Source: Bacteroidia bacterium
GTDB taxonomy: Bacteria > Bacteroidota > Bacteroidia > UKL13-3
NCBI GenBank assembly: GCA_025454875.1
Contig: JALONP010000017.1
Coordinates: 1-64,000, forward strand
Reading direction: 5' to 3'
DNA length: 64,000 bases
The translations under genes and the position numbers were made by a program. Under the pieces are notes generated by a model. That model saw nothing but the letters and a program-made list of their open reading frames with translations, was not told the DNA's origin and made no database searches. Of the stretch, positions 10,287 through 12,775 are shown one piece after another. Each line of letters starts with the position of its first letter. The first letter of the stretch is position 1.

Positions 10287-10799
10287 TCACTTACGTTTCC
10301 AAATAGGAACATTACTACATGCCTCACCATACATAATACTTTTAGCATATGGCGCGAGCTTATGGGTAATTTCTACATAAGCGCTTACGGGCACTGGAAC
10401 ATCACTGCATCCCTTTACAATCACACGAACATCTTGATATTGTTCAAAATCAATTTTTGCCAAGGCATCTTGGTATAAAATAGTTTCCAATGCGGCTAAA
10501 TCTCCAAAAACATAGCGATGAGCATACGGTTCGATATGCACGGAAAGAAGCATGTACGCCCATGTAGGAATAATGGCATCAGCAGAACAAATAAACGCTA
10601 CATTTTTTCCCTGATACTGCTGCCAATTATGGTTTTTAACAAACTCTCTAAAGTCTTTTTCTTTGAGAAGTAGTTCCCTAAACAACCAAGGTTTAATGTC
10701 CAAAACAACCCGTTCTCCTTGATGGAAATAATCTTCTAAGTTCAAGGTAATTAAGCCGCTATTGGCTACTTTGTTTTCTATTGGTTCAATGCTTTCCAT
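10287..10799 (-). CDS. DUF2480 family protein
   Basis: A 170-aa cytoplasmic protein matching the Bacteroidota-restricted DUF2480 family. It shows the N-terminal ANSGLITLNLEDYF segment, a central AFICSADAIIPTWAYMLL stretch, and a C-terminal region with conserved Cys in KGCSDVPVPVSAYVEI. The cysteine and acidic pattern suggests metal or cofactor binding, but no activity is known to me. It stands between the oligopeptidase and the GxxExxY unit and begins 8 bp before the first repeat of that unit. Confidence 0.9.
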   Translation of the reverse strand: MESIEPIENKVANSGLITLNLEDYFHQGERVVLDIKPWLFRELLLKEKDFREFVKNHNWQQYQGKNVAFICSADAIIPTWAYMLLSVHIEPYAHRYVFGDLAALETILYQDALAKIDFEQYQDVRVIVKGCSDVPVPVSAYVEITHKLAPYAKSIMYGEACSNVPIWKRK

Positions 10800-10806
10800 A
10801 CTTTTA

Positions 10807-10840
10807 TTTCCCGCAGATTTCGTTGAGTTTCGCAGAATAA
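10807..10840. repeat. Short repeat copy 1 beside GxxExxY gene
   Basis: TTTCCCGCAGATTTCG followed by TTGAG and TTTCGCAGA. It shares its first 14 bases with the copy at 10862 and with the reverse complement of the copy at 11285-11304. The element also contains an internal echo (GCAGATTTCG and TTTCGCAGA). Confidence 0.75.
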
Positions 10841-10860
10841 AAATTCAATATTTCTATCTT

Positions 10861-10895
10861 TTTTCCCGCAGATTTCTCAAATTTTCTCAGATTAA
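10861..10895. repeat. Short repeat copy 2 beside GxxExxY gene
   Basis: TTTTCCCGCAGATTTCTC, then AAATTTTCTCAGATTAA. It is a diverged direct copy of the repeat at 10807, spaced 55 bp from it, and overlaps the last codons of the GxxExxY gene ending at 10892. Confidence 0.7.
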
Positions 10896-11269
10896 AGATT
10901 CATGACTTTTCTATAAATACTCTTTGATATGTTATCTGTATTAAAGTTAACAAGTAGACCTAGCTTTTTGTTACACAATTTAAGGTACGTGAGAACTTGT
11001 TTATGATGAACTTCCGCTAAATTTTCAACTGATTTTACTTCTATTATAACTTTATCATTCACCAACAAATCAAGCCGAAATCCTAAATCTAATTTAACTC
11101 CATCATAACTCACTGGTACCGCAACTTCTTTTAGCACATCTAAGTTTTCTTTAAGCAATTCGTGCATTAAAGCCGCCAGATAAACAGACTCTAGCAAACC
11201 AGGCCCAAGTTCTTTATAAACTTTGAATATGGCTCCACGTATTTTGTATGAAATATCATTTTCGTTCAT
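10892..11269 (-). CDS. GxxExxY protein, PD-(D/E)XK nuclease-like
   Basis: A 125-aa cytoplasmic protein. The name motif is visible as GPGLLESVY at about residues 22-30. A PD-(D/E)XK-type core follows: Asp in LGFRLDLLV, then VIIEVKSVENL giving the Glu-x-Lys pair, and a trailing helix with HHKQVLTYLKL. Family members are widespread in Bacteroidota and Cyanobacteria; the fold predicts a nucleic-acid-cleaving or binding role, but to my knowledge the function is undetermined. The gene is closely bracketed by inverted copies of a CCCGCAGATTT repeat, unlike any other gene in the window, hinting that gene and repeats move together. Confidence 0.92.
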   Translation of the reverse strand: MNENDISYKIRGAIFKVYKELGPGLLESVYLAALMHELLKENLDVLKEVAVPVSYDGVKLDLGFRLDLLVNDKVIIEVKSVENLAEVHHKQVLTYLKLCNKKLGLLVNFNTDNISKSIYRKVMNL

Positions 11270-11284
11270 TTCTTTCAGCGCCTA

Positions 11285-11304
11285 TCTGCGAAATCTGCGG
11301 GAAA
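11285..11304. repeat. Inverted repeat copy 3 upstream of GxxExxY gene
   Basis: TCTGCGAAATCTGCGGGAAA, the reverse complement of TTTCCCGCAGATTTCGCAGA. It is the best preserved copy and stands 16 bp upstream of the GxxExxY start and 2 bp from the glyS stop codon. Confidence 0.8.
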
Positions 11305-11305
11305 C

Positions 11306-12775
11306 TTACACCAACAATTTTCCCCAACTAATTTCTTGTGCCAGTATTTCTTTCACTTTGCTCATCGCAATACGTTCTTGTTGCATGGTATCCCGGTAAC
11401 GTATGGTTACCGTTTGGTTTTCCAAACTCTCGTGGTCAACAGTAATGCAAAATGGTGTTCCCAATGCATCTTGTCTGCGGTAACGTTTGCCTATCGCGTC
11501 TTTTTCTTCGTAAAAACAGGTATAATCCAACTTTAACTCATCCATCAATTTACGAGCTACTTCTGGCAATCCATCTTTTTTAGTAAGTGGAAAAATGGCC
11601 ACTTTATAAGGTGCCAAAACTGGAGGTAACGTTAACACTACACGCGTGTCTTTTTTATCTTCTTCACCCACTTCTTCTTCTTTATAGCTTGCACACAGAA
11701 CCGATAAAAACAAACGATCTAATCCAACAGAAGTCTCCACAACATAAGGAATATAGTTACCATATGGTTTCCCATTTTCGTCCAATTCTGCATCAAAGTA
11801 TTGGAGTTTTTTACCTGATAACTCTTGGTGATTTTTTAAGTCAAAATCAGTACGCGAGTGGATGCCTTCCAACTCTTTGAAACCAAATGGAAACTCAAAT
11901 TCAATATCCACCGCAGCATCCGCATAATGGGCCAACTTCACATGATCATGGTAACGGTATTTGCTATCACCCAAACCCAATTTATGGTGCCATTTTAAGC
12001 GAGCTTCTTTCCAATATTCATACCATTGCTTTTGTGTACCTGGGCGCACAAAAAATTGCATTTCCATTTGCTCAAACTCACGCATACGCATAATAAATTG
12101 ACGAGCAATAATCTCATTGCGAAATGCTTTGCCTGTTTGGGCAATTCCGAAAGGGATTTTCATCCTTCCGGTTTTTTGAACATTTAAAAAGTTAACGAAG
12201 ATTCCTTGTGCCGTTTCGGGACGCAGGTATATTTTATCAGCATCTTCAGCCATCGCACCCATTTCGGTGCTAAACATCAAATTAAATTGGCGCACATCGG
12301 TCCAATTCCGGGTACCGCTAATTGGGCAAACAATCTCATGTTGTTCAATAAGTGATTTCAACTGCCCAAGGTTATTCTCCAACAAAGCTTGATCTAAACC
12401 GAGTTGAAGTTCTTGTGCCTTTTGGGTTTTCCCGTCCTTTTCATAACGTGCAATTTTATCTTCGAGCAACTGATCGGCACGGTATCTTTTTTTACTGTCT
12501 TTGTTATCAATCATTGGATCGCTAAAACCATCCACATGCCCGCTGGCCTTCCACGTTTTTGGGTGCATAAAAATTGCAGCATCAATGCCCACAATGTTTT
12601 CGTGCAATTGTACCATGGCTTTCCACCAATATTGGCGAAGGTTGTTTTTCAGTTCAACCCCATTTTGTCCATAATCATATACTGCTCCAAGTCCATCATA
12701 AATTTCGCTGCTCGGAAATACAAAACCATACTCTTTGGCGTGGCTTACCACTTTTTTAAACAGTTCTTCGCTCAT
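11306..12775 (-). CDS. glyS: Glycyl-tRNA synthetase, alpha2 type
   Basis: Charges tRNA-Gly with glycine. The 489-aa single-chain class II enzyme is the eukaryote/archaeal-like alpha2 form, not the alpha2-beta2 form of E. coli. Motif 1 region: FPSSEIYDGLGAVYDYGQNG near residue 20. Motif 2: FRNEIIARQFIMRMREFEQM with the catalytic Arg. Motif 3: ETSVGLDRL. The C-terminal anticodon-binding domain spans about 390-489 (LAPYKVAIFPLTKKDG and DALGTPFCITVD). The ATG at 12775 is the first in frame. A TATTTTCG element only 9 bp upstream suggests a very short leader. The gene stands alone, with the GxxExxY unit inserted just downstream. Confidence 0.97.
   Translation of the reverse strand: MSEELFKKVVSHAKEYGFVFPSSEIYDGLGAVYDYGQNGVELKNNLRQYWWKAMVQLHENIVGIDAAIFMHPKTWKASGHVDGFSDPMIDNKDSKKRYRADQLLEDKIARYEKDGKTQKAQELQLGLDQALLENNLGQLKSLIEQHEIVCPISGTRNWTDVRQFNLMFSTEMGAMAEDADKIYLRPETAQGIFVNFLNVQKTGRMKIPFGIAQTGKAFRNEIIARQFIMRMREFEQMEMQFFVRPGTQKQWYEYWKEARLKWHHKLGLGDSKYRYHDHVKLAHYADAAVDIEFEFPFGFKELEGIHSRTDFDLKNHQELSGKKLQYFDAELDENGKPYGNYIPYVVETSVGLDRLFLSVLCASYKEEEVGEEDKKDTRVVLTLPPVLAPYKVAIFPLTKKDGLPEVARKLMDELKLDYTCFYEEKDAIGKRYRRQDALGTPFCITVDHESLENQTVTIRYRDTMQQERIAMSKVKEILAQEISWGKLLV

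Follow-up and report, generated by a model that had tools for sequence, protein, structure and literature searches.

The window, a stretch of 64,000 nucleotides from a Bacteroidia bacterium, carries a short gene enclosed by inverted repeats, with glyS (stop at 11306) on one side and DUF2480 (start at 10799) on the other. The features of this unit are listed below.

10807..11304, minus strand: whole unit, consisting of a 5' arm, a GxxExxY gene, and inner and outer 3' arms (from the sequence and from orthologous sites in relatives)
10892..11269, minus strand: GxxExxY / PDDEXK_3 gene, 125 aa, with a predicted PD-(D/E)XK nuclease fold (profile matches, alignment and AlphaFold2 model)
11272..11304, minus strand: 5' arm, from outer to inner end TTTCCCGCAGATTTCGCAGATAGGCGCTGAAAG, tandem units of 9-10 bp (sequence and arm comparison)
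10862..10893, plus strand: inner 3' arm, TTTCCCGCAGATTTCTCAAATTTTCTCAGATT (sequence and arm comparison)
10807..10842, plus strand: outer 3' arm, TTTCCCGCAGATTTCGTTGAGTTTCGCAGAATAAAA (sequence, arm comparison and the counterpart in genome G020)

The repeats were arrays of two or three tandem 9-10 bp units. They formed one arm 5' of the gene and two arms 3' of it, the two sides being inverted with respect to each other. The 5' arm began 1 nt past the glyS stop codon, the inner end of the inner 3' arm overlapped the stop codon of the nuclease, and the outer 3' arm started 7 nt ahead of the DUF2480 start codon. The 5' arm could be split into the tandem units TTTCCCGCAGAT-TTCGCAGATAGG-CGCTGA or, as an array read from the outside inwards (11304 to 11272), into TTTCCCGCAGAT TTCGCAGAT AGGCGCTGA. 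The segments 10862-10882 and 11284-11304 were 90% complementary, and 10807-10842 and 11269-11304 were 75% complementary.

The initial annotation had placed three copies of TTTCCCGCAGATTT here and had noticed none elsewhere in the window. The window search reproduced this, with copies at 10807-10820 (+), 10862-10875 (+), and 11291-11304 (-) and no further match in the window with up to two mismatches allowed. The three copies were the outer ends of the longer arms, and the true repeats therefore exceeded 14 bp. The bare count in the window alone was only mildly unusual, as shuffled windows held 0.60 matches on average and three matches were reached in 3 of 100 shuffles. In the genome of the window (2.98 Mb), the exact 13-mer AATCTGCGGGAAA had four copies, three of them at this locus. 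The window-type double unit TYYCGCWGATNNCGCWGAT was found four times in the same genome, and contig C36 carried an inverted pair of this type without a gene. Its reversed control pattern gave 0 matches across all genomes searched.

The GxxExxY nuclease

The open reading frame matched TIGR04256 (139.8 bits, cut-off 35, E 4.9e-41) and PF13366 (137.1 bits, cut-off 22, E 4.6e-40), which confirmed the earlier assignment to the GxxExxY proteins with a PD-(D/E)XK core. Only PF13366 was detected as a domain of this frame, and the neighbouring genes encoded DUF2480 and glycyl-tRNA synthetase. The motifs RLDLLV and IIEVKS were present with all catalytic residues in place, and residues G24, E27, Y30, D67, E77, and K79 were invariant in an alignment of 64 sequences. 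The AlphaFold2 model had a pLDDT of 97.1. Its closest solved fold was the Cas4 nuclease SSO0001 (4ic1; Foldseek E 8.5e-5; VIA Z 9.8, 99 residues, rmsd 3.4), and the other structural matches were restriction-endonuclease-like folds and Hjc resolvases. A sequence search of the PDB gave no significant-scoring relative. Compared with Cas4 and the related RecB-like nucleases, the protein was shorter (125 versus about 200 residues) and held a single cysteine, so the four-cysteine iron-sulphur cluster of Cas4 was absent. Recombinase domains of the DDE, HUH, serine, or tyrosine type were not detected in the unit.

The gene was under purifying selection. Seven pairs had unsaturated dS, and in six of these dN/dS was 0.09-0.20. 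The remaining pair, L021/L024 at 1.6, involved very few changes and a predicted frame that included an N-terminal extension. The copy in the window was intact and, as an element, is probably functional.

Inverted arms at GxxExxY loci

The generality of the arms was examined at 88 loci from 40 related genomes for which both flanks were available, and at 84 loci obtained by scanning genome and viral contigs, with a narrower GxxExxY alignment as the genome query. The arm score was the best ungapped inverted match of one flank against the other, with a threshold of at least 12. Inverted arms were present at 105 of the 168 pooled genomic loci (62.5%), so that repeats flanked most copies, as the initial annotation had proposed to check; the figures were 2.8% for 144 neighbouring ORFs and 0 of 30 for the DUF2480 loci used as a control. 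The scores at GxxExxY loci exceeded those of the controls (Mann-Whitney p = 5e-29, a guide only, as the loci were partly related) and the frequency of arms also exceeded that of a swapped-locus control. The hosts of the sampled loci included Bacteroidota, Nostoc, Acidobacteria, Chloroflexi, Nitrospiria, Akkermansia, and Methanosarcinales. The remaining loci, about 37%, were without a recognisable arm pair, which probably reflects decay. It is because of these controls across loci, not because of the count in the window, that the TTTCCCGCAGATTT repeats are taken to be more than chance. Chance or convergent low-complexity repeats near a gene, with which the shuffles of the window could agree, were refuted by the same controls and by the arms at all three GxxExxY loci of this genome, and the probability left to them is negligible.

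In general, an arm consisted of two to four units of 8-11 bp separated by linkers of 1-4 bases. The unit motif CRCNRAG pointed inward 203 times and outward 18 times, and the unit types included CACAGAG, CGCAAAG, CGCAGAT, ACATAG, TATGATT, and ACGAAT. The three GxxExxY genes in the genome of the window were each bracketed by inverted arrays when inspected by eye. The array on C33 was CTTTGCGNCTTTGCGGT, and that on C26, between nuoE- and nuoF-like genes, was AATTAGCGGCT with AATTRNCG units. Since the three loci shared a layout and differed in their letters, the rule was one of architecture rather than of sequence. The initial annotation had regarded confinement of the repeat to this locus as evidence against a mobile unit. 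This was nearly true of the exact sequence, which had one other copy, but the architecture recurred elsewhere, and confinement of the exact sequence was the wrong test because each locus had its own repeat sequence.

No description of repeats at GxxExxY genes was found in a literature search; the papers mentioning GxxExxY were silent on repeats, and a text search for the repeat sequences in papers gave no match. The possibility that the gene is phage cargo was rejected, as confirmed relatives were found in only 4 of 2.9 million viral contigs with the query used.

Matching of the arms to each other and to the protein

The arm sequence varied from locus to locus, but the left arm matched the right arm within a locus. 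The variable letters of the CRC.RA[GT] unit agreed between the two arms of the same locus at 0.89, 0.81, and 0.94, whereas the agreement between arms of different loci was 0.49-0.56. On the protein tree, the repeat type changed 29 times, compared with 43 times when the labels were shuffled, and none of 200 shuffles was as low; the labels were crude and many rows were unlabelled. The arm sequence broadly tracked the protein clade. An independent-pairs test for residues setting the A/G or G/T unit letter gave at most four supported pairs. The proteins of L089 and L105, both in genome G030, were 92% identical, and the units on both sides were of the CAC type in one and of the CGC type in the other.

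In this pair, 8-10 units on both sides differed in concert by a CpG to CpA change. At one orthologous site (L001, L081, L021, L024, L017, and L028), most genera shared a single GxxExxY clade, but the protein of L028 in G002 belonged to a distant branch and its arms were different.

Alternatively, the arms could pair in RNA as a stem for RNase III processing or transcription termination, with the protein incidental. The location right past upstream stop codons would suit a terminator, and the S23 intervening sequences fold via terminal inverted repeats and are excised by RNase III (PMC4990558). However, the differences between arms showed no G-U bias (117 compatible with G-U pairing and 153 incompatible, a departure the other way at p = 0.03), and the conserved feature was the tandem unit rather than the stem. 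A role at the RNA level is therefore considered very improbable.

Gain, copying, and loss of the unit

glyS adjoined DUF2480 in 5 of the 30 DUF2480 loci examined. The gene with its arms lay between them in the genome of the window (G000) and in the sister species G001, where the orthologue carried an in-frame TGA. In G002, the site was empty except for a terminator-like hairpin. G009 and G020 carried a gene-less miniature of the window unit type exactly past the glyS stop codon, and the miniature of G020 had one 5' and two 3' arms, like the window. The empty site between DUF2480 and glyS that the initial annotation had suggested looking for was thus found in one relative, with miniatures in two others. 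The GxxExxY gene located directly 3' of glyS in G013 belonged to another clade and had different arms, which indicated that the site past glyS was occupied independently.

Presence and absence were compared at three further sites (L025, L094, and L099) among the 17 genomes of the genus that includes G036. Two genomes had an occupied L025 site, which held arms without the gene in G046 and was nearly empty in G040. At the L094 site, three genomes had the unit, three had none, and G055 had both arms around an internally deleted gene. The L094 insertion took out the last codons of the upstream gene, for which the arm provided a new stop, and appeared to replace some 30 bp. The L099 site held the gene in G036 and a disrupted copy in G040 and was empty in G046. 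The empty sites at L094 and L099 had no arms at all. No target-site duplication was seen at the L025 and L094 sites, where the junctions were blurred by divergence between genomes. Across 62 loci, the unit mostly started a few bases past the stop codon of the upstream gene, at a median of 6 nt. In G030, three pairs of paralogues were 90% (L101/L111), 85% (L089/L105), and 83% (L016/L129) identical over gene and arms, and the homology stopped at the arms, with unrelated flanks.

On the evidence of these sequence comparisons, the gene and its arms form a discrete unit that has been gained, copied, and lost. At the polymorphic sites, gain rather than loss is argued from parsimony only. Many GxxExxY loci were old and vertically inherited across genera, and movement must therefore be rare. 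In L317 (G047) and L320 (G044), the L025 insertion site was filled by the perfect palindrome GTGGTCTGTGTCGACACAGACCAC or a one-base variant of it.

An alternative is a homing-like selfish gene. Its nuclease would cut gene-less alleles and the gene would be copied in via homologous repair, the arms serving as recognition sites and recombination ends and gene bodies being swappable between pre-existing arm pairs. The near-identical proteins of L089 and L105 with their different units would fit, as either the gene moved between arm sets or the units changed together, and so would the miniatures that share an orthologous site with the gene. The arm-less empty sites at L094 and L099 and the homology of the paralogues, which covered the arms, speak against it, since together they indicate that the arms travel with the gene. 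A homing mechanism of this kind is accordingly regarded as improbable. Free-standing homing endonucleases, which include PD-(D/E)XK examples, resemble the unit in being small nuclease genes that act as selfish units, and differ in that the GxxExxY arms travel with the gene and the empty sites are arm-less.

Gene-less pairs

The pattern CRCARAG-N(1-4)-CRCARAG had up to 111 matches per genome where a GxxExxY gene was present and no more than 9 where it was absent, with medians of 9 and 1 (p = 3e-5), where the counts included the arms of the GxxExxY genes themselves. Gene-less inverted pairs had a spacing of 10-190 bases, and G030 contained more than 20 copies of the 16-mer CACAGAGAGCACAGAG. The window-type pattern was found in 6 of 8 genomes with a gene of the window clade and in 3 of 33 without (Fisher 4e-4). 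Some genomes (G006, G017, and G033) carried arms without a gene of the matching clade. Taken with the arms at most loci and the joint presence and absence of gene and arms, the enrichment of gene-less pairs gave good support to the earlier proposal that gene and repeats are one moved or copied unit, similar to RAYT/REP pairs with a different protein fold.

One candidate, L302, was rejected as a clean solo miniature and excluded as evidence on the ends of the GxxExxY unit, because the inserted DNA was a TA-flanked MITE with the arrays inside. In L302 and L303 of G036, CACAAAG arrays were nested in this IS630/mariner-like MITE (TIR AGAAGCCATCTCAAAA), and L302 had a clean empty site in three relatives.

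S23 genes with the same architecture

The TIGR02436 genes of the same genomes, which encode the S23 four-helix bundle, were bracketed in a like manner by units of other sequence; 16 of 29 had arm scores no lower than the 99th percentile for the swapped control, and S23 and GxxExxY genes co-occurred in most of the same genomes. In the intervening sequence (IVS) of Coxiella burnetii, an S23 ORF is accompanied by tandem GACAGAT heptamers and a terminal stem of 28 bp, and the element has been termed selfish (PMC4990558), which makes a selfish reading of the GxxExxY units natural. The S23 genes share the architecture without a nuclease. The nuclease is thus not indispensable to the architecture, and arm recognition by a nuclease cannot be its sole possible logic.

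Two unrelated protein families in the same layout, found together in most of the same genomes, could mean that arms and a small ORF are a general cassette moved by another machinery, with GxxExxY and S23 as cargo or arm-binding regulators. However, the kinds of unit were specific to the family (AGTTC/AGGTT/TGGCT for S23; CRCNRAK and relatives for GxxExxY), and the clustering of the GxxExxY repeat type on the protein tree was better fitted by recognition by the encoded protein. A general cassette is unlikely, although it is the strongest of the alternatives considered.

The S23 loci in relatives (L216-L244) had inverted tandem-unit arms of AGTTCTT, AGGTTCT, TTTAGGTG, and GCCTCTGGCT. S23 and GxxExxY units were a few kb apart in several genomes (G032:C2:45163-50608; G006:C60; G010:C7), which suggests shared insertion hot spots.

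A probable small selfish mobile element

The unit is best explained, with a probability of roughly 60%, as a very small (about 0.5 kb) selfish mobile element in which a GxxExxY nuclease gene lies between inward-pointing arms of tandem units. Such an element would consist of one nuclease gene and two arms (one and two in the window), each with two to four tandem 8-11 bp putative recognition units. The comparisons between genomes show that it inserts just past, or within the last codons of, an upstream gene and that it decays to gene-less miniature pairs, which are sometimes numerous. We infer that arm recognition and movement are both due to the nuclease: it would bind the tandem units of its own arms and cut the DNA there, and the cut would promote the copying of any segment between two such arms. 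The miniatures may then travel as passengers, depending on the nuclease as REPINs depend on RAYT transposases. Joining would fall to repair or replication enzymes of the host, as the unit encoded no transposase or recombinase that could be recognised and a fixed target duplication was not found.

Of the known systems, REPIN/RAYT is the closest in logic. In that system, a HUH tyrosine transposase, RAYT, is associated with palindromic REPs bearing a GTAG tag (PMC3116915, PMC2817692, PMC3733652). The likeness lies in a gene between inverted short repeats, in gene-less inverted pairs dispersed intergenically, mostly 3' of coding regions, and in the co-inheritance of repeat and protein. In contrast, the GxxExxY unit combines a PD-(D/E)XK nuclease with non-palindromic tandem 8-11 bp units, and its arms had neither a GTAG or CGTC tag nor a palindromic REP. 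Judged from its sequence, the unit is REPIN/RAYT-like in its logic and is not a member of that family, because the defining features, a HUH transposase and a tagged palindromic REP, are absent.

The S23p IVS is similar in its size of about 0.4-0.5 kb, its one small ORF, its terminal inverted repeats, and its tandem short units, which in the IVS are heptamers adjoining the ORF, and it has been called selfish and horizontally acquired (PMC4990558). It differs in that its ORF is all-helical without a catalytic site and in that the published cases sit in 23S rRNA and are excised as RNA, whereas the window unit had no S23 ORF and was located between glyS and DUF2480 rather than in an rRNA gene. Terminal inverted arms, non-autonomous internally deleted derivatives, and copies at unrelated sites are shared with MITEs and IS elements. 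Unlike these, the GxxExxY unit had an arm sequence specific to the locus, no known transposase or recombinase domain, and no identified target duplication.

Gene and arrays together seem to represent a previously undescribed class of very small, selfish mobile DNA, and the GxxExxY units have a fair chance of deserving a class of their own. More tentatively, and with the odds somewhat against it, they may be a new autonomous class in bacteria and archaea in which a small Cas4-like nuclease recognises the arms and copies the unit and its passengers, with S23/IVS as a parallel class with a non-catalytic protein, the two together forming a superclass of repeat-array elements. GxxExxY genes are annotated throughout bacteria and archaea without a function, and this would be explained if they were the engines of a selfish element. 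The same reading, if true, would account for the short tandem repeats (CGCAAAG, CACAGAG, and CGCAGAT types) that are dispersed close to genes in many genomes, and would add a mobile-DNA system based on a class of nucleases that are not known to mobilise DNA through terminal repeats of their own. With the diverse natural pairs of protein and arm, it would be possible to test directly how a nuclease of 125 residues recognises its target.

The BrickBuilt minisatellite of P. gingivalis differs from these arrays in its 23-nt units (PMC4596501). At G001:C1:2643399-2643877, five window-type repeat copies occurred every 115 bp, a minisatellite built from an arm.
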